The notes under the pieces: generated by a model | Told to the model about the DNA's origin: nothing | Databases searched by the model: none | Seen by the model: the letters and a program-made list of their open reading frames with translations, nothing else | Assembly (NCBI GenBank): GCA_013306675.1 | Contig: JABLUY010000104.1 | Span: forward strand, 55,121 to 119,120 | Source of the DNA: Thraustochytrium sp. TN22 | Taxonomy: Eukaryota; Sar; Bigyra; Thraustochytrida; Thraustochytriidae | Direction of reading: 5' to 3' | DNA length: 64,000 nt | In this document: piece by piece, positions 6,782-64,000 of the stretch | Layout of the letters: each line of letters opens with the position of its first letter | Position numbering within the stretch: position 1 is the stretch's first letter | Program-made: the position numbers and the translations under genes

Positions 6782-8372
6782 GGCCGGGCCCTCGCCCTCT
6801 GCCGCCGCCGCCGCTTGCTGCGTCGTCGTCGTGGTCGTCGTGGTCGTCGTGGCCGTCGTCGCCCGCGCCCGCGCCCGCGCCCGCGTCGACGCGCTGCTCG
6901 CGCGCGCTCGCTGCGTCGTCCTCGTCGGGCACAGGCGCCGGCCGGCGCCACAAATGGCCTCCGCCAACCCGCCGACGCCGCCGGCCTCTCCGGCGCCCCG
7001 AGCCTCACTCGCTTCGCCGCGCTTCGCCGCGCTTCGCCGCGCCCGGCCGCCCCGCCCCGCCCGCTTCGCCGCCGCCGCGCTCCGCCGCTCCGCCGCTTCG
7101 CCGCGCCGCCGCGCTTCGCCGCGCCCGTTCGCAGATCGAGCCGCCGCGCGCGCGAGCAGGGATGCTCTGCTCTGCTCCGTCTGCTGCTGCGGCGGTGGAC
7201 CGCGCGGCGATCGCTGGGTGGCGCGATGGGCGCCGGAGCGCTCCGGCGCGGCGCCGCGCCGCGCTGCCTGCCGCTGCCGCGCTGCCCGCCGCCGCCGCCG
7301 CCGCCGCGAGCCGAGCCGCCGCGCGCCGTCCGCGAGGCGCGCCGCGCCTGCGCAGGTGCGAGCTCCACGTGTTCAACGTGTTGGTTGATGGTTTGCTCGC
7401 TCGCGCCGCCTGCTCGCTCGCTCGTGTTCGATGGCGAGGCCCGGGACCTGCTAGAGCTAGCTAGGTGCGCGCCGCGGACCGCGTCCGGTGCGCGCCGCAC
7501 GCGCCGCGCCGCCGGTTCGCGCGCGCCGCACGCCGGCGGCGCGGGAGATTCCGGGACGCGCCGCCCGCAACGGACCCGGCTCCCGCGCCGACCCCTGCAC
7601 GGGCCCGGGTCCCTGGCGAGGCGAACGGCGAGCTGGCGGCCGGGCAGACAGACAGCGGCAGCGAGAACCGCAGGCGCGGCGCGGCGAGAAGCTTGGACAA
7701 GGCTTGTCCGAAGCCTTGTCGGCGCCGCGGTGACGGCTTGGGTCTGGCTCGGCGTGGCGCGCTTGGCCGAGCTGGCTTGGCTGCGAGGAACGCGAGACTT
7801 GGGGGTGAGGAAAGCGCGCGCGGCGCACCGGTGGACAGCACGGGCCTGTCCTGCGGCCTGATCAATGGCAGGCTTGTCCGAGTCAGAACGATTGCTGACT
7901 CCCAGGCGGCGGCGCCATCGGGCTTGGTTTGCTTGCGCGAGCTCGGATGACGCGCTCTGCGTCACTGCGTGCGCGCTGCCAGGGAGGGCGCCGCGCTGCG
8001 TCGCTTCAAGACAAGACTCGCGCTGCGAGCTCGCCGAGCTGGCTGGTGCGCGTGAGGCTGGCTGACTCTGCCGCCAACCGTGCAGCGCGTGGCGGGGCCG
8101 CTGGCTGGCCCGGCCTCTGATGCTGTGAGGACCGTGAGGTGCGCGAGCGTCCGCCATGCGGCCATGGCCAGCGACAAGCGTCACATCAGCGAGTCGCGAG
8201 CGGGCGTGAAACGCGAAGTGTTGAGAGAAACACGGAGCGGGTGGCTCGCTCGCGGAGTGGCTCGCTCGCGGAGCGCCCGCGCGGGTGGCGTACGCCGGGC
8301 AGGTGACTGACTCACACTGCTACACTGACAGGCTTTGATCTGTCTCGTCATTAAGGTCATTGGTACAGAAAG
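6782..8372. other. Long GC-rich intergenic region
   Basis: No gene is supported in these 1.6 kb. There is a GTC-type trinucleotide run at about 6815-6860, CGCGCC hexamers at about 6862-6885, and a CGCTTCGC/CCG-rich block at 7009-7130 upstream of the phosphatase. Long overlapping frames on both strands are Arg/Ala/Pro-rich and have no ATG-led domain. The right end (about 8320-8372) is the 3' flank of NPRL3. Confidence 0.55.
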
Positions 8373-48750: not shown

Positions 48751-49174
48751 GGCGTGCCCCGTTCCTTCGGCGCCGCTTGGAGCTTCGCGTCGGCCACATG
48801 CACGAGCAGCAGCATCTTTTAGACTATGACAATCATCTTGACGACTATAACTTACGCATTCGACCTCAGGTGGCCAGGCTCGATGAAGGTGAGCTTTGGC
48901 GGCCGCCTCGGAGGCGATGTTGTGATCTCTCCTCTCTCTCTCTCTCCCCATCTTTTCTCGTCCCTGTCTCTTGTGGCTGCCATAGCTTCGCTGCGGCGCC
49001 GCCGAGGTCAGACCTTCTACGCTCGCGTGCAGACGCTCGCTCGAGAGCGGGCGGCAGGTGTGGCGTAGGCAGCGTGCAGTGGTCCGCGCGTAGCCGTCGG
49101 CGCTGTCGTGCAGTGAGACGTTCCTCGCGCTCAAGCTAGCTAGCTAGCTAGCTAGCTAGAGCTTGGTGGAGATC
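48751..49174. other. Intergenic region upstream of the PLP homeostasis gene
   Basis: A TC-rich run (CTCTCTCTCTCTC) lies at about 48929-48948 and a pure (GCTA)n run at 49134-49159. No gene is seen. Confidence 0.6.
49134..49159 (+). repeat. (AGCT)n/(GCTA)n microsatellite directly before a gene start
   Basis: Six units of AGCTAGCT end 15 bases before the ATG at 49175. The repeat is self-complementary. Confidence 0.92.
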
Positions 49175-50062
49175 ATGAGCGCGGCGGCGTCGGGATCAGG
49201 GGTGGCCGCGGCGCTGCGCAGCGTGCGCGGGCGCATCACCGAGCTGTGCGGGCAGCTGGGACGCGCGGAGCCAACGCTGGTGGCGGTGAGCAAGACGAAG
49301 CCAGACGAGATGGTAGTGGAGGCGTACGAGGCCGGGCAGCGGCACTTCGGCGAGAACTACGTGCAGGAGCTGTGCGGCAAGGCGCCCAATCTGCCTTCCG
49401 ACATCAAGTGGCACTTCATCGGTATGCTGCAGAGCAACAAGGCGAAGCAGGTCGCGTCGCTGCCCAACTTGTACATGGTGGAGAGCGTGCATTCGGTGAA
49501 GCTTGCGAATCAGCTCAACAAGAACGTGCCGGAGGACCGCCCCGAGAAGCTGCGCGTGCTGGTGCAGGTCAACACGAGTGGGGAGGACAGCAAGAGCGGC
49601 GTGGAGCCCACAGAGTGTGTGGGCCTCGTCTCGCACGTGCTTAAGGAGTGCTCTAACCTGCAATTCGCCGGGCTTATGACCATTGGCCGTCTCGGCGACA
49701 TCTCGCCGGAGTGCTTCGACCTGCTGTGCAAGTGCAAGGAGGACGTTCTGGCCGCGCACCCGGAGCTCAAGGACATGCCGTTTGAGATGTCTATGGGCAT
49801 GAGCAATGACTACGATATCGCTATCAAGCACGGCTCCACGAGCGTCCGCGTCGGAAGCAGCATCTTCGGGTCGCGCTCGTACGAGCCCGGTAAGAGCCCG
49901 GAGGAGGTGCTCAAGGCCCGCCAGGAAGAGGAGGCCGCAAAGAAGGAAGCCGCTCCGACCGAGGCCGGCGCTAGCACGGCCGGCGCGACCGCCGAGGCAG
50001 ACGCATCCAAGCCCGAGGCCGCGACACCGCCGCCGCCTGCCGCTTCGTCTTCCTCCTCATGA
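49175..50062 (+). CDS. Pyridoxal phosphate homeostasis protein (PLPBP/YggS family)
   Basis: The 295-residue product starts MSAAASGSGV. The PLP-binding lysine is in LVAVSKTKP (Lys40), followed by AGQRHFGENYVQE, KWHFIGMLQSNKAK, VQVNTSGEDSKSGV, GLMTIGR and FEMSMGMSNDYDIAI with SVRVGSSIFGSR, all family motifs in order. It is a fold-type III PLP carrier that buffers free PLP and has no known catalytic reaction. The last 45-50 residues (Ala/Glu/Pro/Ser-rich, from about 250) are not part of the fold and are unusual for the family. No ATG lies in frame shortly upstream, so 49175 is the start. Confidence 0.95.
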   Translation: MSAAASGSGVAAALRSVRGRITELCGQLGRAEPTLVAVSKTKPDEMVVEAYEAGQRHFGENYVQELCGKAPNLPSDIKWHFIGMLQSNKAKQVASLPNLYMVESVHSVKLANQLNKNVPEDRPEKLRVLVQVNTSGEDSKSGVEPTECVGLVSHVLKECSNLQFAGLMTIGRLGDISPECFDLLCKCKEDVLAAHPELKDMPFEMSMGMSNDYDIAIKHGSTSVRVGSSIFGSRSYEPGKSPEEVLKARQEEEAAKKEAAPTEAGASTAGATAEADASKPEAATPPPPAASSSSS

Positions 50063-50227
50063 AGTGCACACGAAGCAAAGCCATAGCGAAACGTCACGGT
50101 GCAGTGTGCGGTGCTGTGACATGAAAACAGAAGAAGAACACAGATCGGAAAGGTCGGGTTGTTGCTACTTGTACGATCGTCGGGCGCCTCAGGGCGGGTG
50201 AAGTTATGCGCGCCCAGAGGGAGCTTA

Positions 50228-52273
50228 CTACATGTCGAGCTGGTCCCAGGAGCCGAGCTGAGACGCCTTGGCAGGCTTGCCCTTGCCCTTGGGGCCCTTT
50301 TCAACCTTTTTGAGCTTGGCAATGGTCGCGTTCATGCGCGACTTCTTCGCGGATGAAGCCTTGTCGGCATTGCGCTGCCGCTTCGCGCGCGGCCGCTTGC
50401 CGGCGGCCTTGCTGCCGGCAGCCTGCTGCTTGCCGCGCTTGCCAGCGGCAGCGGCAGGGCCCTTGGACTCCTCCTCCTCCTCCTCCTCCACCTCCTCGTT
50501 GTCTTCCTGCTCGCCGTCGTCGCCCTCGCCGTTGCCAGCCTCCTCGCCCTCGTCGATGCCCTCGTTGTCGTCGGCCTCCACACTGCCGGCATCCTCGTCG
50601 TCCTCGTCATTGTCCTGCTCGGTAATGAAACCGAACTCCTTCTGCGGGAGAAGCGAGAAGTCCTGGACCGGCAGCTGAATACGCTTGGCCAAGTTGTCAC
50701 CATCAGCCTCGTCGTCCTCGTCGTCTTCGTCGTCCTCGTCGTCGTCCTCCAGCGCCTCCGCGCGCTTCTTCTTGCCAACGGCGACCGCCGAGGAAGAGGA
50801 AGAGGAAGAGGAAGAGGAGCTGGAGACGGCCACGGTCTTGCCAGCAGCGGCGACGGCCTGGCCCTCCTCGCCGTCGTCCTCGCCGCCCGAGGAGGCAGGC
50901 GGGGGCACAAAGTAGGGGATACGGCCACGCTGCAGATCGTAGATGACCCTTTGCGCGATGCTGCGAATGTCGGGCTCGCCCTTCTTGAGCAGACGGCCGC
51001 GCTTGTAGGCGAGCTGCGAGAGGAAGTCTTCGGCGTCGACCCAGGAGTCGATGCCATAAGTGCGGCGGATGTACTCGGGCTGCACGCGGTCGAGCATGAA
51101 AGGGATATAGTCGTCGGGGCTTTCGAGGCGCTCCGCGCGGACGACGCCCTTGAAGACGACCTCGGCCTCGCTGTCCTCGTTCGGGTAGACGATGCCGGGG
51201 CAGTCAATGAGGAAGACACGCTTGAAGAGCGTAATGTACTGCCAGACTTTGGTCTCGCCCGGGATGGGCGCCACCTTGCACACGTTCTTGGAGCGCAGCG
51301 TGTTGATGATGGAGCTCTTACCAGCGTTCGGGTAGCCGATGAAGCCGACGCTAATCTGCTTCTTCTCGGGGTGCAGAAGCGCGAACTGGCGCAGGAGCTG
51401 GATGAGTGCGCCCTTGCCAAAGGGCTTGGTCATGTTGGCGTGGAAGGCCAGCGTCGGGTACTCCTCGGAGAGAATGCGCACCCAGCGGCGCGTGACCCAA
51501 GTCGGCACGAGGTCGACCTTGTTGAGCACAAAGATGAGGTGCTTGTGCGTCTTCTCCTTGCGCAGATAGGTCTCGACGCGCTTGGACCGCGTGCCGAGAG
51601 GGTCGCGCACATCGAGGACCTGGATGACCACGTCACTACAGTCAAGAACCTTGTAGAGCTCCTGCCAGATGCGCTTGCTCTGGCCCTTCTCAAAGACCTT
51701 CTCGCGCATGGCGATGGCGCCGCCGCGCGCGTCCAGGCCGGCGCCGCCCGCCTCGGCCTCCTCCATGGCCGTCTCGAAGGAGGACGCCTTCTTGTTGGCG
51801 TCCTCGACCAGGCCGCTGAGCGAGGCGGCCGAGAGCTTGGCCCGCTTGCGCTGCCGCTTCGGGCCGAAGACGCTCTCGTAGCTCTCAGAGGACAGCAGGT
51901 GCATGCGCGCCTCCTTCTTGGAGTCCGTGAGCAGACTCATGGGCAGGCGCCGCTGGTTGAGCACGACCGTATACGGGTCGGCGACCTTCTCGGCCATCTG
52001 CTCGCGGAAGTTCTCCAGCTCCTTCTGCCCCACCACGCGCGTGTTACCGAACCAGCGCCGGTTGGGCGCAATGCGCGACATCTTCTCCATGGGCTTGTTG
52101 CCCGTGCGGTTCCTGCTCATGAAGTCGCCGCCCACGATGCGGCCCTGCTTGTTGCGAATCGGCGCGCCGCCCCGGTACATGTTGAGCCGCTTGATCGTCG
52201 CCTTGGACCGCCCGCCATTGCCCTTGCCCGGCGCCTTGCGGTCCGGGTTCGACGACGACTGGCTGCGCCCCAT
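50228..52273 (-). CDS. Nucleolar GTP-binding protein 2 (NOG2/GNL2)
   Basis: The 681-residue product begins with the conserved NOG2 N-terminus ([40 protein letters not shown]). The GTPase motifs are in circularly permuted order: NKVD in [10 protein letters not shown] (about 250), then P-loop [11 protein letters not shown] (about 309), IPGETKV, and DCPG in [10 protein letters not shown] (about 355). This order defines the YlqF/YawG GTPases. In yeast Nog2 joins the pre-60S particle in the nucleus and controls its export. The C-terminal 200 residues are acidic and then Lys/Arg-rich. The ATG at 52273 gives the family start; the frame upstream is unrelated. Confidence 0.95.
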
Positions 52274-53126
52274 GATGCCTTGCGCGCCGTGCGCGCCCCG
52301 CCCCCACGCGAGGCGACTTTCTCTCTGCCCTGCTGCAACGCAGACAGCGGCCGCCTCGCTCCACCGCCGCACGCCGCCCCGCCCCGCTCGCTCCCGCCGC
52401 CCGACCGCCGCCGCGCGCGCGACGGACACGAGAAAGTAGTTCTGCGGCGCCACCACCGGTTCTGAGCCAACCAGGACTGGGCCGCTTTCACGCGAGTTGG
52501 GCCGCTTCGGTTGGGCCGGGCGCCGCCCGCCGCTGCGATCAATAGACCGCTTAGATCCGTTATGGCGAAGTCACGCTCGGGCCGAGACGGCCACGGGTGA
52601 CATGGGGCACTGCATGCACAGGCTGCCTGTCAGGCGACTCACAAGTCGTGGCACGTTAGCTAGCTAACTAGCCTGAGTTGCGACGACGCCGGGTTCAAGT
52701 ATTGGCAGTGAGTCGCGCGCACGTGCAAGCGGGCAGCCATCTTTTCCGCGCGGCCAGGCTGTGAGAGAGGAGTGCATTGCGCCGCGAGCCGTGCAACTCT
52801 GAACTAGGCCTAGGTTAGGCCTAGCTAGGCTAAGGCCTAACTGTGAATTAGTTTAAGCGACCTGAGAAGGATACAAGCGGAAAGGTGGCTTGAGAGGATA
52901 GGTGGAGCGGGCGAGCAGGAGGGAGAACGAGAAGACCCCGGCTCGCGCGGCTCGGCGGCCCGGCGCTGAAGAGCGCTGAAGAGGCTCGTTGCCGACCAGG
53001 GACTCGCGGCTCGGCCCGGCGTAGAGTTGCAAAGGCTCGCGGCCAGCAGTCGGTCTCGCGCTCAGCATAACAAAAAGTGCCCACCGCCGCCGCCCGCCGT
53101 TGGCTCGCGTGCACAGCTAGCTCACG
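52274..53126. other. Divergent promoter region
   Basis: No gene is seen between GNL2 and the gene at 53127. A palindromic cluster of TAGGCCTA elements is at 52802-52842, GTTAGCTAGCTAAC at 52656-52669, and an AGCTAGCT motif lies 6 bases before the ATG at 53127. Confidence 0.6.
52802..52842. promoter_or_regulatory. Palindromic cluster of TAGGCCTA elements (putative regulatory)
   Basis: Three AGGCCT palindromes and one CTAGCTAG-like centre occur within about 40 bases. GTTAGGCCT and AGGCCTAAC form a perfect inverted repeat with 9-base arms and a 10-base spacer. Position in a divergent promoter suggests a protein-binding site, but no factor is known. Confidence 0.45.
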
Positions 53127-54254
53127 ATGGCAGCCGTGAGGCGCGAGGGCGAGGCGCAGGAGCTGACGCAGGAAGGGCGGCTGAAGAAGTCTTGGCGCTT
53201 CTACAGACGCACGGGCGCGCTGTGGACGGACCCATACCACCTGCACGAGCGCGAACGCAAGTGGAGCGAGCGACCAGACTTGGATGCCAGATATGAGGCA
53301 CACCTGGAGCGCGTGAAGCGCGGGGAGGAAGCCGAGGAGCGCACTCGCATCCTTCAAGAGAAACAGCGTGCTCGCAAGATCCGGGCGAGGCTGCACTTGC
53401 GGCAGGTGGAGAACGCGGACGCGGAGGGCCGCGAGCCGCCCCGAACGGAGCGCGACGGTAGGCATGACAGCGCGCGACGCATCCTGCGCGACAAGCGCCA
53501 GCGCGCACCAGAGCACTCGCACAAATTGAAGACGGGCGAGCACTGCCGCGCCGAGGGCTTTCTGTGGAGCAGTCTCAAGCACGTGCCGCAGAGCCGGCTG
53601 CACCTGGTGCTAAATGAGCACATTATTAGCAAGGATCGCAAGGCGTTGGATGCCATCGACAGGCGGCTTGAGGCGGAGCGGGCACAGCACGAGGAGCGCG
53701 CGCGGCTTGCGCAGGACCGCATCCACGCCCTGCAACGCGGCTTCCAAGCGCAGCAGGACGCCAACGACCGGCGTAACTCCAAGGCGGGCTTGCCTTCGCC
53801 GCCGCGCCGCCGCGCCACAGTTCCAGCCTCTCGCGACGCACGTCCACGGTCCGCCGTGCCGCGCCTTGGACCGCCCGCAGGCCTTTCCAAGGGCGCGCTC
53901 GTGATGGAGAAGAGCGGGCTCTTGCACGTCGACACGGTGTCCTGCAGCAGACTCGGGGACTATGCCGCGGCGGAGGAGCGGAGGCGGCCTTCCGTGGGCG
54001 GCGCGCGCGCCATGGTGCAGGCGGCGACGCCCCGCGTGGTCTTCGCCTCGGTGTCGCCCTCGCTCGACGGCGAGGACTCCTCCATCGTCTTCGACACGGC
54101 GACAGAGGATGCGACGAGCACGACTTCAACCTTGTCGAACGCGCCCTTGGGACCTGGGACATCCCTGTGCGACCCCGCGGTGGTCCGCCATGAGATCGAG
54201 GCCTTTGAGGACCACCTGCGCGGCCTCCCGGGCCTGAAGCCCTTCTACATGTAA
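53127..54254 (+). CDS. Unrecognised charged, coiled-coil-like protein, 375 residues
   Basis: The N-terminal part has KKSWRFYRRTGALWTDPYHL (about 20-39), followed by a strongly charged helical stretch (about 55-130), then FLWSSLKHVPQSRLHLVLNE (about 143-162) and another helix (SKDRKALDAIDRRLEAERAQ). The C-terminal half is Pro/Arg/Ser-rich, ending EIEAFEDHLRGLPGLKPFYM. No domain is recognised. The pattern (short aromatic motif, then long charged helices) is seen in many axonemal and cytoskeletal proteins, but this is only an impression. The ATG follows an AGCTAGCT motif. Confidence 0.75.
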   Translation: MAAVRREGEAQELTQEGRLKKSWRFYRRTGALWTDPYHLHERERKWSERPDLDARYEAHLERVKRGEEAEERTRILQEKQRARKIRARLHLRQVENADAEGREPPRTERDGRHDSARRILRDKRQRAPEHSHKLKTGEHCRAEGFLWSSLKHVPQSRLHLVLNEHIISKDRKALDAIDRRLEAERAQHEERARLAQDRIHALQRGFQAQQDANDRRNSKAGLPSPPRRRATVPASRDARPRSAVPRLGPPAGLSKGALVMEKSGLLHVDTVSCSRLGDYAAAEERRRPSVGGARAMVQAATPRVVFASVSPSLDGEDSSIVFDTATEDATSTTSTLSNAPLGPGTSLCDPAVVRHEIEAFEDHLRGLPGLKPFYM

Positions 54255-54576
54255 GCAGTTGCCAACAAACAAACTTCCGTCTCACGCGCTGTAGAAACTA
54301 CTGCTCAGCTAGCTCAAGTTGCGCGCCGCGGGAAAGAGAGCAATGTGAGGAGATGAGGGAGAAAGAGAATATGGGGGGGGGGGGGGGGGAGGGGGGGACG
54401 GGAATGGAGCGCGCTCGAAGTGTGGCCCTCGACGGCGCGCGTAGGGATGGAGGAGAAAATGAAAAAGGTGTCAGGGGACATGCAGCCTGGGTCAAGAAAG
54501 GCCCGGTACTGCGGCGCAGACGGGGCTAGCCCACCCGCCCGCTCGCCGGCACCGTGGCCCGCTCGCCGGTCGGCGC
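54255..54576. other. Convergent 3' region with a long G run
   Basis: A 17-G homopolymer (54373-54389) is followed by one A and seven more G (to 54397). No gene is seen. Confidence 0.7.
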
Positions 54577-54942
54577 TTAGGCACCGTGCACCACGATGTG
54601 CGAGCGGTCGATGATCTCCTCGTCGACGAGGAACTTGACGACGCCCTGACGGTGGTCACCCTGGAGCTGGATAATCTCGCCGAAGTCGTCGTCGTTCACC
54701 ACGGCGCCGTTGCACTTGAAGGACTTCTTGAGCGCCTTGCAGATGCGCTTGAGGTCGAGGTCGTCAGCCAGGCCGGTGATGGTGAGAATGCACTTGCGCC
54801 GGCTGCGCTGCTGCAGACGGATGTGCACCTTCTCGATCGTCTGGGTGCCGCCCTGCGCCTCCGCGAAGGCATCGCGCTTGTCGAGGCGGCTCGCGTCGAA
54901 GCTCATAAAGTCATCGTTCGCCTGCGTGTCCGTGGCCGACAT
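54577..54942 (-). CDS. Translation initiation factor eIF1 (SUI1)
   Basis: The 121-residue product has an N-terminal DDFMSFDASRLDKRDAFAEA tail and the SUI1 domain: VHIRLQQRSRRKCILTITGL, DDLDLKRICKALKKSFKCNG, then a loop and IIQLQGDHRQGVVKFLVDEE. Length and sequence agree with eukaryotic eIF1 (113 residues in human). It binds the 40S subunit and enforces AUG selection. Confidence 0.97.
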   Translation of the reverse strand: MSATDTQANDDFMSFDASRLDKRDAFAEAQGGTQTIEKVHIRLQQRSRRKCILTITGLADDLDLKRICKALKKSFKCNGAVVNDDDFGEIIQLQGDHRQGVVKFLVDEEIIDRSHIVVHGA

Positions 54943-55649
54943 GGTGCCTGGGTGGGCTCTTGTTGCTGTCTCCGAAGCTGCTGCTCGTCTGCGTTTGTGT
55001 CGCCGTCAGTCCCCCGCCCAAAACGCCGCCACCGCCGCCGCGGCCGCCACCGCGACCGCGCACTCTCCCCCTTTTTTTCGTGACGATCCGATTCGAAAAT
55101 CGAGCGCCGCCGCTGCCGCCGCCGCCGCCGCGCGCACCGCGCAGCGTAGCGCTGCGCTGGCGGCCACCGCTCCCGCCGCCGCCGCCGCCGCCGCCGCCGC
55201 GCCGCGCGCACGTACCTCTCGTCAACCGAGTCTGCCGTCGCGGCGGCCGTGATGAGCGGCGCCGGCGCCACCCCGGTTGGGCCGCGCGATAGGCCGGTTT
55301 GCCGCCGACGCGCGACGTCCCGCGGCTGGGCTGGCCGGGCAGCGCGACGTCGACCATGGCCAGCGAGGGCATCAGCCGGGGAGTTGCCGTCAGCGATTGC
55401 AGGAAAACTTGGAGGAGAAAGAGGCTACTATTTCGTTCATCCCGGCGCGGCGATGCGCGAGGTCGTCTACAATATTATCAGGGTGGGCGAGCACGGCGCT
55501 CGTCTCGTCGACTCTCGTGTTAGCACGATGCGCGAGAGTACCGTGGCGCACGTGCAGAGAGGCGCAATGAGGCGCAGAGAGGTGCAGAGAGAGAGAGATT
55601 TTGGCTCGGCAGGTCTGCGCGGTGAGGTGCTTCGTTCGCACATCGACAT
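54943..55649. other. Intergenic region upstream of eIF1
   Basis: CCG-type runs lie at 55017-55050, 55105-55135 and 55175-55205. The rest up to 55649 is the 3' flank of the acyltransferase gene. No gene is supported. Confidence 0.6.
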
Positions 55650-56798
55650 TTAGCTCGCGCGCTCCTCGTGGGAGACAGCCTCGCTGCCGTCGTCGTCGTT
55701 TGGCGACGGGGAGTTGAGGTCCGAGGGGTCAAGCGTGAGCACGCGGGAGAAGTCCGGCTCGACGGAGGCGAGCTCCGGGTCGAGGTCGAAGTTGGGGAGG
55801 ACATTGCGGAGATGCTCGATGGCCTTGTAGACCTCGTACATGAGGTCCTCGACGGACTTGCCAGTGCTCTCGATGGGCTCGCCAAAGTGGATGTGAATGT
55901 CGGCGGTGCTGAGCAGCAGGCTCGGGGTGCTGACCTTGGAAGTGAGGTCCATGGGCCAGCCGCCCTGGTTGCCCCACTGGCCGACCGGAATGATGGGCAC
56001 GCCAGTCTCGATGGCGAGCTGGAAGAAGCCCTTCTTAAAGGGCATGAGGTCACCGCGCTTGCTGATGGAGCCCTCGGGAAAGACGGTGAGGCCGATGTCC
56101 ATCTCGAGATACTCCTGCGCTTGCGCCATGAGCTCGTCGAGCGTGCCGGTACGCGTGCGCCAGCGGCCGAGCTTCTTGTCCTTGACAAAGTGCACGGGCA
56201 TGTCGCCCGAATTAGAGAGCGCCTTGCCGGCGACCGGGATGTTCCACAGGTCGGCCTTGCCAACGTACTTGGTCTCGACGGGCCTCTGCGCGGCCGAGAG
56301 CACGAACGGGTCAATGTACGAAAGGTGGTTGGCCATGTAGATGGCGGCCTTGGGAAGCTCCTCGAGCGGCACGTCCGCATGCACGGTGACGCTCCAGAAC
56401 GGGTTCAGGTCCACCACTGCCACGGCCATGGAGTGGCGCAGCGCCTTGCCCAGGGTGATGAGGCGCTCGCGCCTGCTCATCTTCTCATGTTTCTCGCGGT
56501 TTTGGTCCACGCGGTCCAGCACGAACTGCAGGGCGTACACGAAGAGAAAGCCGAGCGCCAGCGCGATGAAGATCCACACCGTAAGAAACACGCGCCCCAC
56601 CGGCTTGGCCACCTTGCCCACGGCCTCCATATCCGGCAGCGCCAGCTCCCCCATGTCGGCGCTGCGCCGCTTCGACGAGCGCCGCTTCGACGAGGTCCGC
56701 TTGCTCGACCGCCGCTTGCTCGACCGCCGCTTGCTCGCCGAGAGCCCCAGGCTCTGCGCCAGCTCGTCCACCCACGCCGGCTGCTCGAAGTCCATCAT
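55650..56798 (-). CDS. PlsC-family acyltransferase (probable 1-acylglycerol-3-phosphate acyltransferase)
   Basis: The 382-residue product has five near-identical KRRSS-type pentapeptides at residues 23-46, a membrane helix at about 66-95, and a PlsC domain. The motifs are NHLSYID (157-163; His158 and Asp163 catalytic), KADLWNIPVAGKAL, and FPEGSISKRG (240-249, acyl acceptor binding), followed by VPIIPVGQWG. The enzyme adds an acyl chain to lysophosphatidic acid (or a related lysolipid) at the ER. The basic/Ser repeat before the membrane helix would be a good target for basophilic or SR-type kinases, or for anionic lipid binding; this is inference. (GGCAC)n pentamers immediately precede the ATG on the coding strand. 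Confidence 0.88.
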   Translation of the reverse strand: MMDFEQPAWVDELAQSLGLSASKRRSSKRRSSKRTSSKRRSSKRRSADMGELALPDMEAVGKVAKPVGRVFLTVWIFIALALGFLFVYALQFVLDRVDQNREKHEKMSRRERLITLGKALRHSMAVAVVDLNPFWSVTVHADVPLEELPKAAIYMANHLSYIDPFVLSAAQRPVETKYVGKADLWNIPVAGKALSNSGDMPVHFVKDKKLGRWRTRTGTLDELMAQAQEYLEMDIGLTVFPEGSISKRGDLMPFKKGFFQLAIETGVPIIPVGQWGNQGGWPMDLTSKVSTPSLLLSTADIHIHFGEPIESTGKSVEDLMYEVYKAIEHLRNVLPNFDLDPELASVEPDFSRVLTLDPSDLNSPSPNDDDGSEAVSHEERAS

Positions 56799-58108: not shown

Positions 58109-61100
58109 TTAGAAGCTGTCGTCATCATCGGGGTCTTCGTTGTCATCGCGAGCGGCGTCGCGCTCGTCCTGCAAACTCCAGCGGGCGTCCTCCTGGGCCC
58201 AGGCGGCACGAAAGGTCTCGAACTTGAAGATGTCAGTCTCGGCGCGTGTGATGCGTACGCCAGCCGGGAACGTGTAGTTGGCCTCGGCAGGCAGGTCGCG
58301 CGCGGAGAGGCTGGACCAGAGCACCTCAAGCACGAGGTCACGCGCGGCCTTGCGCTCGCGAGCTCCCACTACCCTGGCAGCGACGGTGCGCTCTGTGACG
58401 AAGACCTCACGGGACCCTCCTTGGCGAGAGCGGCTGCCGCCGGCGTGACCGTGGCCCGTGGCATCCGCACCGGTGGACGAGGACAGGCTCTGCTGCGAGA
58501 GCGAGGACTGAGGGCGCCGCTGGCGCCCGCGACGCAAGGAGGCCGCGAGTTTCGCTTCGCTCTCAAAGACGCGCTCCGAGAAGAGGATGATGTCGCCGAG
58601 GACCACATCGCCCGTGCTGCAGTCGATCTTGAAGAAGCGCGCCGCATTCGCGCGAGAGGCGCGCCGCTCTATGGTGTCGCGCGCAGTCGTGGTGGCACTC
58701 TGCGCCGGTAGCGAGGGCGCCGAGGCAAGGCGTTCGGCATTGAGCGCCTTGACGCGGAGCCGGTAGACGGAGCAGGCCTCAAGGCCCGACACAAGCGCAA
58801 ACGAGTCCTTGCCGTCGTAGACGACAACCCAGGAGCGCTCATCCGCCGGAACTGGGCCGCGCGGCTTCACGCGCGTTGCGGCCTCGGAAGCGGCGAAGTC
58901 GGCAGCCGCCTCGCTCTCATCCGGGAGGCGCTCCACCAGCATGGCCTCCAGCACAAAGCGGTCTGCGCCGCCGACGCCCGGGTACCACTTGACCCTAAAG
59001 TGGCGCGGGCCGGCCTCGACGACCACAGGCTGACGCGGCGTCTCGGGCGCCGTGAATACGACGAGCTCCGGCGACGGCGTAGAGAGCGTGCGGCGCAGCT
59101 CGCACTGCAGCGCGTAGACGTGGCGCGTGTTGGGCGCCAGGCCGGTCAGGCGCGCCTCGGTTTTGGTGCCCCTGTACACGGCGCGCCAGGCGGCGCCCTG
59201 AGCGGGGCGGCGCTTCGTTTTCCTACCATTGGCGTCGTCGTCGCAACCGCCGCCGCCGCCGCCGCCACCACCACCACCATCACCACCACTGTTGCTGCGG
59301 CGCACGCGGTGCAGCAGCACAAAGGTCATCTCCGCGCTTCGCCACCAGCGTGCAAACTCCGTGTACGATACGTGGCCGTCACCGTTGGTATCAAGCTCCT
59401 CGCGCGCCTCTGCAAAGGACGGACCAGAGCTGCGCAGGCCAAGGTCCGCGAAGAGCTCCGCAAGCTCGTGCGCGTCCATGAGGCCGTCCGCATTCTGGTC
59501 GTACCGCATGAAGGTTTTGCGCAGCGTGGCATCCGAGACGCCACCTTTTGTCTCCATGTGCGGGTCCTGTGCCCACTCGCCCACGAGCTTGGTCCAGGAC
59601 TCGCGCTTGGCGTCCAGGGCCTCTTTGGCGCGCGACTTGCGGCTCAGAAGCTCCAGGTCCGGCCGTGTCCATGCCAGCGAGACAGCGTCCGTGGTCGCGT
59701 CTTTGATCATGCGCGGCGCGGGCGGTGCGACGGCTGGCAAATGCACCAGGAGGGCGGCACCCATGCGGCTAGCCACTCCATCTGCCTCGTCCAATGCCAG
59801 CAGGCGGAACTGGTGCGCCGACCCAGGCTCCAGTCCTGTCAGCGTGCACCGCGGCTCCGAGCCGCGGTACACCACTTCGTACACTTCCAGATGCGTCACA
59901 GGTTCGCTGAGCGCGCCGACCGAGGCGAGCGTACCCGCCTCGTCCAGGCCGTGCTGCTGCTGCTGCTGTTGCTGCTGCTGTGAAAGCTGCTGCTGCTGTG
60001 AAAGCTGCTGCTGCTGTGAAAGCTGCGCGGCCTTGCGACCGCCAGCCCTGGCAGAGGCCGGTCGCTGAGTCTTGCGCGGCAAGAGCACGCGAAGCGCGGG
60101 CTTCTCCTGGGCGTCGCGCGCCGGCATCGGAAGCTCGACGTAGTACGGCCGCGGGACATCGGCCAGCGCGCTGGTATCATCATTATCGCCGCCATCTGCA
60201 ACGGCGCGACTCAGGTGCCAGTCAGAGCCCCGCAGCACGGAGACGACCACATCGTCGGCCGACCGCTTGGAGCTGAGCGCGCCCTCGCGCTTGAAGTCCA
60301 CCTCCTCGTCCGCCACACAGCGGCACAGCATGTACGTGAGGCCGAGGCCCACGCGGGTCTGCGCGCCCGCCGCGGCGTCGTTGGTTGCCCCGTGTGCGCG
60401 AAGCACGAGCGCCTTGAGCGCGGGCCATGCGAGTTTGCCCTCGCCGGGCTGCAGCGCCTCAAGCGCCTCCAGCAAGGTGGCCCCGGCAGCCGTGGCCGGC
60501 GCCGGCAGGTCCTCGAGCGCCTTATGCAGCTGCGCGTGGTGCGTCTCGAGGGCGTCCAGAAAGGTCTCCGGGTCGAGTGCGCCGGAGCCGTCCACGTCGA
60601 GCGCGCGAAAGACGTCGCGCAGTTCGCGCAGAAGCGCCTTGGCCGTGGGCGCGCCGTCGCCCCAGGCCAACGTGAGCGTGGTGGGCGCAAGCGAGCGGAT
60701 CACAGGCAGCGGCGGCGCGCGCGGCGCCGTGAGAAAGGAAGCGTACGTGAAGGGTGAAGCACCATACCCGTTGAAGGCGCGCAGGCGGAAGTGGTAGCGG
60801 ACGCCGGCATCAAGCCCGCGCACGAGGAATTCGCCGGCCTGGCCCTTGCCGCTGGCCGCCGACGGTGGGTCTCTAAAGACCTCCTTGTACTCGTGGCGGC
60901 GGTGCGCCTTGCTGCCCTCGCGGCCGCACGTCTCCAGGACGTAAAACGTCGGGAAGACGCTGCCTTCGCTGGGGCGCCACTGCAGGAGCAGGCGCGACTG
61001 GCGCTCCGCCTCGGCCAGCCCATGCACCGGACCGAGCGCCAGGACAGGTGCGAGCGGCGGCTCGCCCTGCGACTGCATTGCAAGCGTGCGCGCGATCTCG

Positions 61101-63484
61101 CGGTTCGTCTCGGCGAGGTTGTCGAGGCCCTCGAGCGCCGTGAGCCGGTCCTGCAGCGTCCAGCGGGACACCTCGCAGGCCGTTGGCGTGGGCTTGGCGA
61201 AGTCGCCAGCGCGGCGCTCGCCGCTACGCACGAGGCGGCGCGCGCGGCGCTCAAGGTCCGGCAGCGGCACGCGCACCCAGCCCTTCTTGACCCTTCCGGA
61301 GCGTAGGCGCAAGGGCAGTGTGCGAACAAGCGCGCCGTTTGCTCCCGAGGCTGCCGCTGCGTCCTCCTCGTTGTCCTCCTGGTCTTCGTCCTGCGAGTAC
61401 GCATCCTCGCCGTCGCCGTCGCCGCCCTGCTCGGCCGTCACAGCCGGCCGCACGTCGTACGCGCTCGTGAGCCCGGTCACGTGGCAGCAGGCCTCCCAGC
61501 TGCAGAGCTCGCCGGCGCGCAGCGTGAGCAGGGCATCGCCGCGCGCGCCGGGGCGGGGGTCGTAGCCGGTGAATCGCAGGAACTCTTTGCGCGAGATCTT
61601 GCCGTTGCCGTCCTGGTCAAAGAGCGTGGTGAGGATGCGCACCTCGTGCGGTTGCACAGCGAGGCCGGCGTCCTGCATCATGCGGCGGAATCGACGCGGG
61701 CCGAGCTCCAGCGCACCCTCGAGCTGGCGGCGCTCGTCGGCCGTGGCGTCCGAGACGTCGCGGCCGTCGCTGGACATCATGCGGCGCAGCTCGCGTTCCA
61801 CGGCCATGTCGAAGATGGCCGCGAAGTCGGTGCCTGGGCGGTTCAGGAACTTGAGCAGCACCGCGTGCACCGTGGACGACGGGTTGCAAGTGTCGCAGAC
61901 ATTGGGCGGGAGCGAGTCCCAGGTCGCCTTGCAGTGCGCCGCAGACCGGTAGCCGGCAGACCACTTGGAGAATTCTGCAAGAAGCGTGGCGTCCACGGCC
62001 TTGAGCTGCTCGCCCACATAGCGCCAGTGCGCCTCGTCCGTGGCGGCGCCCTCGCCGCTCGTGCCGGGTTTGTCGATGTGCGCGAGGCTCTCGAGCGCAC
62101 GCGCACGCAAGTCCTTCTGCGCAGCCCACTCTCTGTACGACTCGGCCGCCTTTTCCTCGCGCTGGCGCACGAGCTCGCGGATGCGGTCGCGTTTGGTCGG
62201 CGCGGCGCGCGCCGCGCGGTAGTCTTCCGGAAGCGGGTCCCCGTCCTCATCGCGAAAATTCTCCTTGAAGAGGTGGCCGTCGCGCGCCAGTGCCTCGCGC
62301 GCGGCCTCCAGGTCCTTGCGGTTTGTCGCGTATGCGTAGCGCTGCTTGCCGCCGCCGCCGCCGCCGCCGCCACTGCTGCGCGTGGCGGCTTCGATGCTGT
62401 GCTTGGCCGAGGCCGGCCCACCACGCGTGCGCACTGCTTTGGGCGGGCCGACGCTAAAGTCCATGCGGGCGAGCTCCTTCTCGTCGCGGTACAGCAACTT
62501 CTTGCGCCTGCGAAAGGCCTCTGAGGAGGCGGAGGAGGAGCCGGCGGCCCCGTCGCGATTTTCCGCGTCGCTGTCATCGCTCTCGCTCGCCTCGGGCAGG
62601 CGTACGCGCATGCGGTCCTTCTTGGCGACGAAGCCCTGGTGCACCTGGCTCGCGTACTCGCGGTCCTCGCGCTTGCGGTTCTCCACGACGGTTGCGCGGT
62701 GCGCGACGTCCTGCTCGACCCAGCGCGCCAGCTTGCCCAAGCCCATTGAGCTCAGTGCGCGCTTCTCCGCGGCCGCCAGCGGCAGGTCGGTCTGGGCCGT
62801 GGCGACATCCAGGCGCTCGTACACGGCGGCCTGCGCGCGCGCGAACTCCGCCTGCAGCAGGCGGTGATAGATCTTATTGTACTTGGCCGTGTCCGGGTTG
62901 TGCAAGTTGCGCTTGTCGTGCGCCGCCTGCTTGGCGCGCGGCGCCGTGTACTTGAGGCTTGGAATGATGAAGTCGCCCTCACGGTCCATTTGCTCCGCGT
63001 ACTCACTCATGACTTCGCGCGCGCTGGCTGAGAAGGTACGCGCGAGAGCCGTGTCCACGGGCACGTTCTCGAACTCGTGGCCGGCCTGCTTCGACCAGCG
63101 ATAGAACTCGCTCTGCAGCGTGCGCCGCTTGCGCAGCTCGTCACGACTCACATTATGCGCCGGCTCGCGGTCGCACGGCAGGCCGTCGTAGCCGTCCTGC
63201 TTGTACACGCCGCGCAGGCAGTCCACCGCGCTCACCGCCACGGCCACCTCAAACCAACGCGCCGGGTCGGCGCACCGTTCCTCGGCATCCAGCTGGTCCA
63301 ACAGCTGCACGGCGCGCTCGAAGCTGTCCTTGTGCTGCAGCCACGCCTCGAACTTGCGCTGGCTTAGCTCGCGCCGCGCAGACTCGCGCGCCCTCGCGCG
63401 CCGCGCCTCCTGCTCCACGGAGAACCGCCGGTCATCATCCTCACGCTCCTTTTGCTCGAGCCACGCCGCGTGCGACAGCTTCAT
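58109..63484 (-). CDS. Large EF-hand/fibronectin type III protein with EF-hands inside FN3 domains
   Basis: The 1791-residue product starts with about 300 charged helical residues. An EF-hand (DQDGNGKISRKE, about 623) precedes a Cys-containing segment. FN3-like domains follow at about 810-925, 930-1230, 1255-1470 and 1475-1590. The second is split after TLTLAWGDG (Trp941) by an EF-hand region (DVDGSGALDPET, about 961). The third is split after VSLAWTRPD (Trp1272) by an EF-hand pair (DQNADGLMDAHE about 1328, DTNGDGHVSYTE about 1364). Each resumes with a VYRG strand and the GLxPG/YxFRLLA-type core (about 1204 and 1433). A Gln-rich repeat (LSQQQQ units, encoded at 59950-60020) sits in the first insert. 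There is no signal peptide, so it is probably intracellular. Calcium could change FN3 packing; the role is unknown. Confidence 0.85.
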   Translation of the reverse strand: MKLSHAAWLEQKEREDDDRRFSVEQEARRARARESARRELSQRKFEAWLQHKDSFERAVQLLDQLDAEERCADPARWFEVAVAVSAVDCLRGVYKQDGYDGLPCDREPAHNVSRDELRKRRTLQSEFYRWSKQAGHEFENVPVDTALARTFSASAREVMSEYAEQMDREGDFIIPSLKYTAPRAKQAAHDKRNLHNPDTAKYNKIYHRLLQAEFARAQAAVYERLDVATAQTDLPLAAAEKRALSSMGLGKLARWVEQDVAHRATVVENRKREDREYASQVHQGFVAKKDRMRVRLPEASESDDSDAENRDGAAGSSSASSEAFRRRKKLLYRDEKELARMDFSVGPPKAVRTRGGPASAKHSIEAATRSSGGGGGGGGKQRYAYATNRKDLEAAREALARDGHLFKENFRDEDGDPLPEDYRAARAAPTKRDRIRELVRQREEKAAESYREWAAQKDLRARALESLAHIDKPGTSGEGAATDEAHWRYVGEQLKAVDATLLAEFSKWSAGYRSAAHCKATWDSLPPNVCDTCNPSSTVHAVLLKFLNRPGTDFAAIFDMAVERELRRMMSSDGRDVSDATADERRQLEGALELGPRRFRRMMQDAGLAVQPHEVRILTTLFDQDGNGKISRKEFLRFTGYDPRPGARGDALLTLRAGELCSWEACCHVTGLTSAYDVRPAVTAEQGGDGDGEDAYSQDEDQEDNEEDAAAASGANGALVRTLPLRLRSGRVKKGWVRVPLPDLERRARRLVRSGERRAGDFAKPTPTACEVSRWTLQDRLTALEGLDNLAETNREIARTLAMQSQGEPPLAPVLALGPVHGLAEAERQSRLLLQWRPSEGSVFPTFYVLETCGREGSKAHRRHEYKEVFRDPPSAASGKGQAGEFLVRGLDAGVRYHFRLRAFNGYGASPFTYASFLTAPRAPPLPVIRSLAPTTLTLAWGDGAPTAKALLRELRDVFRALDVDGSGALDPETFLDALETHHAQLHKALEDLPAPATAAGATLLEALEALQPGEGKLAWPALKALVLRAHGATNDAAAGAQTRVGLGLTYMLCRCVADEEVDFKREGALSSKRSADDVVVSVLRGSDWHLSRAVADGGDNDDTSALADVPRPYYVELPMPARDAQEKPALRVLLPRKTQRPASARAGGRKAAQLSQQQQLSQQQQLSQQQQQQQQQHGLDEAGTLASVGALSEPVTHLEVYEVVYRGSEPRCTLTGLEPGSAHQFRLLALDEADGVASRMGAALLVHLPAVAPPAPRMIKDATTDAVSLAWTRPDLELLSRKSRAKEALDAKRESWTKLVGEWAQDPHMETKGGVSDATLRKTFMRYDQNADGLMDAHELAELFADLGLRSSGPSFAEAREELDTNGDGHVSYTEFARWWRSAEMTFVLLHRVRRSNSGGDGGGGGGGGGGGCDDDANGRKTKRRPAQGAAWRAVYRGTKTEARLTGLAPNTRHVYALQCELRRTLSTPSPELVVFTAPETPRQPVVVEAGPRHFRVKWYPGVGGADRFVLEAMLVERLPDESEAAADFAASEAATRVKPRGPVPADERSWVVVYDGKDSFALVSGLEACSVYRLRVKALNAERLASAPSLPAQSATTTARDTIERRASRANAARFFKIDCSTGDVVLGDIILFSERVFESEAKLAASLRRGRQRRPQSSLSQQSLSSSTGADATGHGHAGGSRSRQGGSREVFVTERTVAARVVGARERKAARDLVLEVLWSSLSARDLPAEANYTFPAGVRITRAETDIFKFETFRAAWAQEDARWSLQDERDAARDDNEDPDDDDSF
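59950..60022 (-). repeat. 18-base coding repeat giving LSQQQQ units
   Basis: CTGCTGCTGCTGTGAAAG units repeat near-perfectly and extend a pure CTG/TTG run on the plus strand; they encode Gln-rich LSQQQQ repeats in the FN3/EF-hand protein. Confidence 0.88.
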
Positions 63485-64000
63485 CGCTCGCTGTCGCTTG
63501 AGCGCGCAAGCACGAGCGCGAGGGCGACCACGGGTGCGTGAGTTTGCGCTTCGATTCGAGTCCCTTCACGGCGACGCACGGCGACCACCGTCGCACGAGT
63601 TTGCGCTTCGATTCAAGCCCCTCGAATGCGCACGTGCGCTCCGGTGGGTCAGCCTCTGCCTTTACGTCGTCCTCGCCGATCCTGTGGCTACTTGCGCTCT
63701 CAACTCCGCCGTGCAGACCTCCAGCAAGACTCGCATTCTGCTCCAGTTACCGTTGGGAACGCGGGGCAATGCGCCCCTGTTGCGCGCAGCTTGAGCTTGA
63801 AGAGGAGACCGGAGGCAAAGTTTTTTATAATAAGAAAAGAAGGGGTTCGCATGGTGCCCTCCTTCGCGCTCAGCAAGGTTAATAAAAAAGAAGCCCCGCT
63901 TCGGCTTTGAAGACTCGACTCGACTCGACTCGACCCGACTCGACGCGACTCGGCTCGACTCGACTCGACTCGACTCGACTCGACTCGACTCGACTCGACT
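63485..64000. other. 5' flank of the FN3/EF-hand gene with a pentanucleotide array at the window edge
   Basis: No gene is seen. Two copies of GAGTTTGCGCTTCGATTC (63541 and 63598) lie 57 bases apart. The last 90 bases are the (CGACT)n array. Confidence 0.65.
63907..64000. repeat. (CGACT)n pentanucleotide array running off the window
   Basis: Units of CGACT (GAGTC on the other strand), with a few variants (CCGACT, CGCGACT, CGGCT) in the first 45 bases, become perfect from about 63955 to the edge. The full length cannot be seen. Confidence 0.93.

Follow-up and report, generated by a model that had tools for sequence, protein, structure and literature searches.

The window analysed here is a stretch of 64,000 nucleotides from Thraustochytrium sp. 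TN22 (contig JABLUY010000104.1, positions 55,121 to 119,120 of the forward strand), and on its minus strand lies an intronless gene (58109..63484, window positions) encoding a protein of 1791 aa in a single open reading frame whose start matches the starts of its homologues. Alignment and structure prediction indicate that this protein contains four fibronectin type III (FN3) domains and two EF-hand pairs, the latter nested within FN3 units 2 and 3. A profile search recovers eight family relatives at E 3.8e-173 or better (P0002–P0005 and P0007–P0010), and the four FN3 units are evident in the resulting nine-protein alignment, which includes the window protein. All features of the protein described below are encoded on the minus strand.

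Units 1 (residues 811–921; 60722..61054) and 4 (residues 1483–1600; 58685..59038) carry no insert. Unit 2 is divided into strands A and B (residues 922–942, ending TLTLAWG; 60659..60721), strand C (residues 1049–1061, LTYMLCRC; 60302..60340) and strands C′ to G (residues 1198–1252, containing EVYEVVYRG; 59729..59893), while unit 3 is divided into strands A and B (residues 1253–1273, ending VSLAWT; 59666..59728) and strands C to G (residues 1386–1482, MTFVLLHR to WRAVYRG and beyond; 59039..59329). Counted from the conserved Trp of strand B to the residue that opens strand C, the spans in units 1–4 of the window protein are 9, 108, 114 and 8. The pattern recurs in P0010, which is only ~30% identical (8, 117, 99 and 8), and P0016 has a unit-2 span of 118; across the nine proteins the inserts measure 91–119 residues in unit 2 and 92–112 in unit 3. 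Because these spans are long in units 2 and 3 and short in units 1 and 4, it is the same B–C loop that, in both alignment and models, is filled in two neighbouring domains and left unfilled in the units adjoining them.

The predicted structures build a single FN3 fold across each split, and their superposition on FN3 domains, strand order and B-strand Trp agree with that fold; the split units are thus predicted to form FN3 sandwiches. Together with the alignment, this supports a reading in which each beta sandwich of units 2 and 3 is completed by the strands flanking its EF pair. Only unit 1 passes the FN3 profile (PF00041; 41.4 bits against a cut-off of 25), so the assignment of unit 1 draws on Pfam, alignment and model and that of units 2–4 on alignment and models. 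By title, no FN3 domain containing an EF-hand occurs among the structure matches listed. The first-pass annotation had proposed, from the sequence of this gene, that two successive FN3 domains break at the same place after their Trp strand to admit EF-hand regions, and this proposal is borne out by the alignment with eight relatives, in which the split is shared, and by the predicted models.

The inserts are arranged as follows. B–C insert 1 (residues 943–1048; 60341..60658) holds a degenerate EF-hand pair; in the model its first helix begins ~7 residues past strand B and its exit stretch (1035–1047) is of low confidence. B–C insert 2 (residues 1274–1385; 59330..59665) enters through a low-confidence linker (1280–1314) and continues as a canonical EF-hand pair, with loops at residues 1329–1340 (59465..59500) and 1365–1376 (59357..59392), whose last helix is modelled to stop 4 residues ahead of strand C. 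Trp1380, in this exit helix, is invariant in the nine-protein alignment. Unit 2 carries a further insert of ~135 residues between strands C and C′ (residues 1062–1197; 59894..60301), defined by alignment, mostly of low model confidence and including a polyglutamine stretch. This insert is found in all seven proteins that we label the window's type (P0001–P0005, P0007 and P0008), a label of this analysis defined by that common insert, and is absent from P0009, P0010 and P0016, where strand C′ follows close behind strand C. It contains conserved blocks such as EKPAL/S and is lineage-restricted, and in this species its polyglutamine is encoded by an array of 18-bp units (59970..60026). Comparison with P0009, P0010 and P0016 led us to reject a single EF insert of about 250 residues in unit 2, as first annotated, in favour of three parts: an EF pair (~106 residues), then strand C, then a distinct C–C′ insert. 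The point of resumption shifts likewise: the VYRG segments first taken to reopen each domain are strand C′, and the domains restart at strand C.

Calcium-ligand residues are unevenly distributed among the EF-hands. Insert 2 matches the EF-hand pair family PF13499 (E 9.9e-21, best stretch 1320–1381), and its loops are canonical in 10 of 10 proteins (first loop) and 9 of 10 (second loop, which fails in P0008). A separate EF-hand region ahead of the FN3 array (residues 594–640; 61565..61705), detected by Pfam, pattern scan and ligand table, has a loop at residues 623–634 (DQDGNGKISRKE) that is canonical in all 12 proteins scored; P0015, which falls outside the ligand table, lacks the position-12 acid by eye and would bring the count to 12 of 13. 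The first loop of insert 1 (residues 963–974, DVDGSGALDPET; 60563..60598) has Thr at position 12 in place of the acid and is incomplete in all seven window-type proteins, where for P0007 and P0008, with gaps or extra residues in these columns, 'incomplete' denotes the ligand table and the absence of a pattern match there. It is canonical in 5 of 12 proteins, the more distant P0009, P0010, P0013, P0014 and P0016 that cover the loop, although every scored loop of P0013, P0014 and P0016, here and in the other EF-hands, was taken from pattern matches and is canonical by selection. No protein scanned gives a pattern match for the second loop of insert 1, which begins with Glu in P0009, P0010, P0013 and P0016. 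These residues support retention of complete calcium ligands in EF pair 2 and the separate EF-hand (590–640), and degeneration of EF pair 1 in the window's type. The comparison is unrooted; its more parsimonious reading is that insert 1 formerly held one calcium site that was lost in the window's lineage, the alternative being a gain in the other lineage. The earlier suggestion that each sandwich is directly calcium-responsive is supported by the loop residues for domain 3 and lacks such support for domain 2 in the window's type.

The closest relative is a protein of Hondaea fermentalgiana, 62% identical over residues 800–1640, which is the sole close relative bearing a name, 'Calmodulin'. Calmodulin is a small protein of ~149 residues with two EF pairs; the present protein, which is 1791 aa long and includes FN3 domains among its further regions, is rejected as a member of that family, and the automatic name masks the true architecture. 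A further search adds four shorter relatives (P0013–P0016): P0014 stops within insert 1, P0015 ahead of the FN3 region and P0016 shortly into unit 3, whereas P0013 comes from Pythium insidiosum. Since Hondaea is a thraustochytrid and P. insidiosum an oomycete, the family, on these sequences, covers at least two stramenopile groups. The homologue searches scored the 7985–7991 candidates sharing most words, and relatives beyond the stramenopiles may exist. Six other proteins (P0006, P0011, P0012 and P0017–P0019) cover 5–11% of the query and have FN3-, immunoglobulin (Ig)- or EF-type domains without the full family set. The P0013 gene model, by eye, lacks strands C–G of unit 1 and A–B of unit 3 together with the FN3 portions of unit 2, and was used for loop sequences only. 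Read by eye as it stands, its order is a unit-1-like FN3 strand B, EF pair 1, EF pair 2 and the strand C of unit 3. Exons were probably missed in this model; otherwise it would describe a single FN3 domain holding four EF-hands in its B–C loop.

The same genome encodes a paralogue (L009; contig C450, 63500–73400) with an open frame of 2514 aa. Searched on its own with the family profile, it gives six matching segments in the family's order (315.5 bits, E 3.4e-98). Its B–C spans are 9, 58, 38 and 8, the long ones being those of units 2 and 3 and no others. Pfam reports no EF-hand stretch in these long loops and places the EF-hand matches of the paralogue in its N-terminal part. By eye, unit 3 of the paralogue retains a short stretch (PRETFRRWTAQD) akin to the segment leading into the EF pair (RESWTKLVGEWAQD), and the simpler reading of these sequences is that the paralogue lost its EF pairs. 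An un-nested arrangement is seen in a 575-aa protein (L010; contig C118), where an FN3 domain with an uninterrupted match comes first and EF pairs follow in tandem. Our tallies of proteins combining FN3 and EF-hand domains in this genome are lower bounds.

We then compared the units and inserts with one another. The unit profiles and the FN3 tree used seven of the nine aligned proteins, P0002 and P0003 being omitted as near-copies. Whole unit 2 and unit 3 profiles align in one piece over 161 columns (E 3.2e-16), and once the inserts are stripped the FN3 profiles of units 2 and 3 (E 5e-12), 3 and 4 (9.1e-11) and 2 and 4 (2.2e-10) match more strongly than any pair with unit 1 (2.2e-9 to 2e-5). 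A tree of the FN3 parts favours no pairing, with approximately unbiased (AU) p values of 0.488–0.521 for each of the four pairings tested. The insert-2 EF pair is as near to the separate EF-hand (590–640; E 3.3e-11) as to insert 1 (E 1.6e-10) by profile, and single EF-hands in seven proteins give mean similarities of 29.4 between the two first EF-hands of the inserts, 27.9 between the two second ones, and 30.8 between the separate EF-hand and the second of insert 2. In the models, moreover, the two inserts join their sandwiches differently, insert 1 tightly on the strand-B side and insert 2 tightly on the strand-C side. Duplication of a composite FN3–EF unit, as first proposed from the matching insertion points, is therefore compatible with the one-piece alignment of units 2 and 3 but gains nothing from the tree, from the equal nearness of the separate EF-hand or from the unlike joins; the sequences accommodate a duplication with later divergence as well as two independent insertions.

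On balance we favour, with moderate confidence, a scaffold in which EF pair 2 serves as a calmodulin-like calcium lobe presented on an FN3 loop while EF pair 1 is calcium-independent. The protein would be cytosolic and plausibly cytoskeletal or flagellar, with the lobe displayed on the B–C loop of unit 3. Because the last helix of EF pair 2 leads almost straight into strand C, calcium would turn this exit helix and expose a target-binding face beside the sandwich; the linker of ~35 residues on the strand-B side of insert 2 would take up the motion. EF pair 1 would now serve, independently of calcium, as a spacer or a docking module. A flagellar role is no more than a lead, suggested by a weak resemblance of the N-terminal region to CCDC34 and by EF-hand depletion in oomycetes: non-zoosporic downy mildews are reported to show depletion of the EF-hand domain class together with flagellar domains (PMC6264045).

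Several points weigh against this interpretation. Pfam reports fn3 in unit 1 only and none in the split units, although an insert of ~100 residues is expected to break the profile. The models were built on nine sequences, with mean predicted local distance difference test (pLDDT) scores of 71.2 and 68.5 and predicted template modelling (pTM) scores of 0.56 and 0.52, and are therefore unreliable on how each EF pair sits against its sandwich. The insert 2 entry stretch has low pLDDT, yet the prediction makes it helical and the five closest sequences conserve it; it may be ordered, with less slack than its pLDDT implies. Calcium binding by insert 2 is read from loop residues, the cytosolic placement is presumed, and the scaffold, flagellar and docking roles come from weak leads. 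The passages of PMC6264045 on this depletion do not name the family or use the word fibronectin, and the main text of a flagellar proteome paper (PMC3471859) mentions calmodulin once and EF-hand, calcium and fibronectin not at all.

Calcium could instead act on the sandwich itself, the EF pair changing how far apart strands B and C lie and so loosening or tightening the FN3 fold. Each EF pair is anchored at its two ends to core strands B and C of a single sandwich, and the conserved entry of insert 2 may be less slack than it appears; each insert nevertheless has a low-confidence side (1280–1314 in insert 2, 1035–1047 in insert 1) that should absorb strain, as should the variable length of insert 1 (91–119 among nine proteins), and the first loop of EF pair 1 is incomplete throughout the window's type. 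Since each EF pair is tightly joined on one side only, pulling on strands B and C is not the most natural output, and we consider such a strain switch rather unlikely. We think it similarly improbable that the EF pairs are remnants, now in decay, of an older calcium sensor in a protein where only the FN3 scaffold matters. Such decay would fit the degenerate EF pair 1, the B–C spans of 58 and 38 in the paralogue, for which no EF-hand stretch is reported, and the loss of the second insert-2 loop in P0008; the insert-2 loops, however, keep every scored ligand in all 10 proteins (first loop) and in 9 of the 10 (second loop), down to ~30% identity. Finally, the split might be only apparent, the EF pairs being ordinary linker domains and the FN3 domains complete elsewhere in the chain. 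Two strands of the unit 2 C–C′ insert, PYYVELP and ALRVLLP, could rival the assigned strand C, and Pfam makes no fn3 call for the split units, but the models form one sandwich across each split and no complete FN3 domain appears outside the EF segments; in P0009, P0010 and P0016 strand C closely precedes C′ with no other candidate, and the tandem protein on contig C118 shows what an uninterrupted FN3 match looks like in this genome. This last possibility we regard as very remote. Retaining the calmodulin-like lobe as our preferred reading, we offer more tentatively, as a possibility short of even odds, that these proteins form a natural family of calcium-sensing beta sandwiches: in a stramenopile ancestor, two FN3 domains in a row would each have held in the B–C loop an EF pair with one or more working calcium sites, making a two-sensor scaffold with calcium-gated FN3 interfaces; the window's lineage would have silenced the first sensor, and the paralogue would have shed both but kept the loops.

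Outside the FN3 array, the N-terminal region (residues 1–560; 61805..63484) is charged, with repeated F/W..WL..K segments by eye. Its match to CCDC34 (PF13904) reaches 21.5 bits against a curated cut-off of 35, and membership was rejected; against PDB sequences the region finds no relative (best E 0.71). A conserved C-terminal region, defined by alignment (residues 1613–1780; 58145..58648), has the family pattern GD.ILF.ERV ... ERTVAARV ... EVLWS and no clear Pfam match, the match to DUF7699 being weak (18.1 bits, cut-off 27). Upstream of the gene lies a GACTC 5-bp tandem array of 17.8 copies (63912..64000). Neighbouring genes identified by Pfam (49163..56798) encode an Ala_racemase_N protein (plus strand) and an NGP1NT/MMR_HSR1 GTPase, a SUI1 protein and an acyltransferase (all minus strand); an open reading frame at 53127..54254 (plus strand) has zero Pfam matches.

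Nested domains, FN3 domains and EF-hands are each already known, and the closest counterpart that we found is engineered. Full-text literature searches, outside which most subscription papers lie, did not turn up any report of an EF pair occurring naturally within an FN3 loop. The layout used by designers, a sensor in the loop of an Ig-like domain, appears to occur naturally in protists, and the sharing of the family between a thraustochytrid and an oomycete points to an old origin, although in the oomycete only the side joining EF pair to strand C is visible. A canonical-loop sensor, a degenerate sensor and a loop without a detected sensor form a natural series for studying whether calcium sensors nested in this way control the domain around them. 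Compared with other FN3 domains (PF00041), the units share the B-strand Trp, strand order and model superposition, and unit 1 matches Pfam; here, two of the four units hold domains of ~100 residues in the B–C loop, and unit 2 adds the C–C′ insert. The paralogue on contig C450 has the same FN3 array with long B–C spans in units 2 and 3, and differs in having its EF-hand matches in an N-terminal extension and none reported in the loops. EF-hand pairs and calmodulin lobes (PF13499) resemble insert 2 in their paired canonical loops, with Foldseek calmodulin matches at 22–31% identity, but here both ends are tethered within another domain and insert 1 is degenerate. In the engineered protein EF61_dIG8-CC, an EF-hand motif was grafted into a hairpin of a de novo immunoglobulin domain, giving a thermostable scaffold that binds Tb, with Ca competing (PMC9530121). 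That design shares with the present family an EF-hand motif within a loop of an Ig-like beta sandwich; it is man-made and carries one minimal loop in a C-terminal hairpin, whereas the window protein carries a natural EF pair in the B–C loop.
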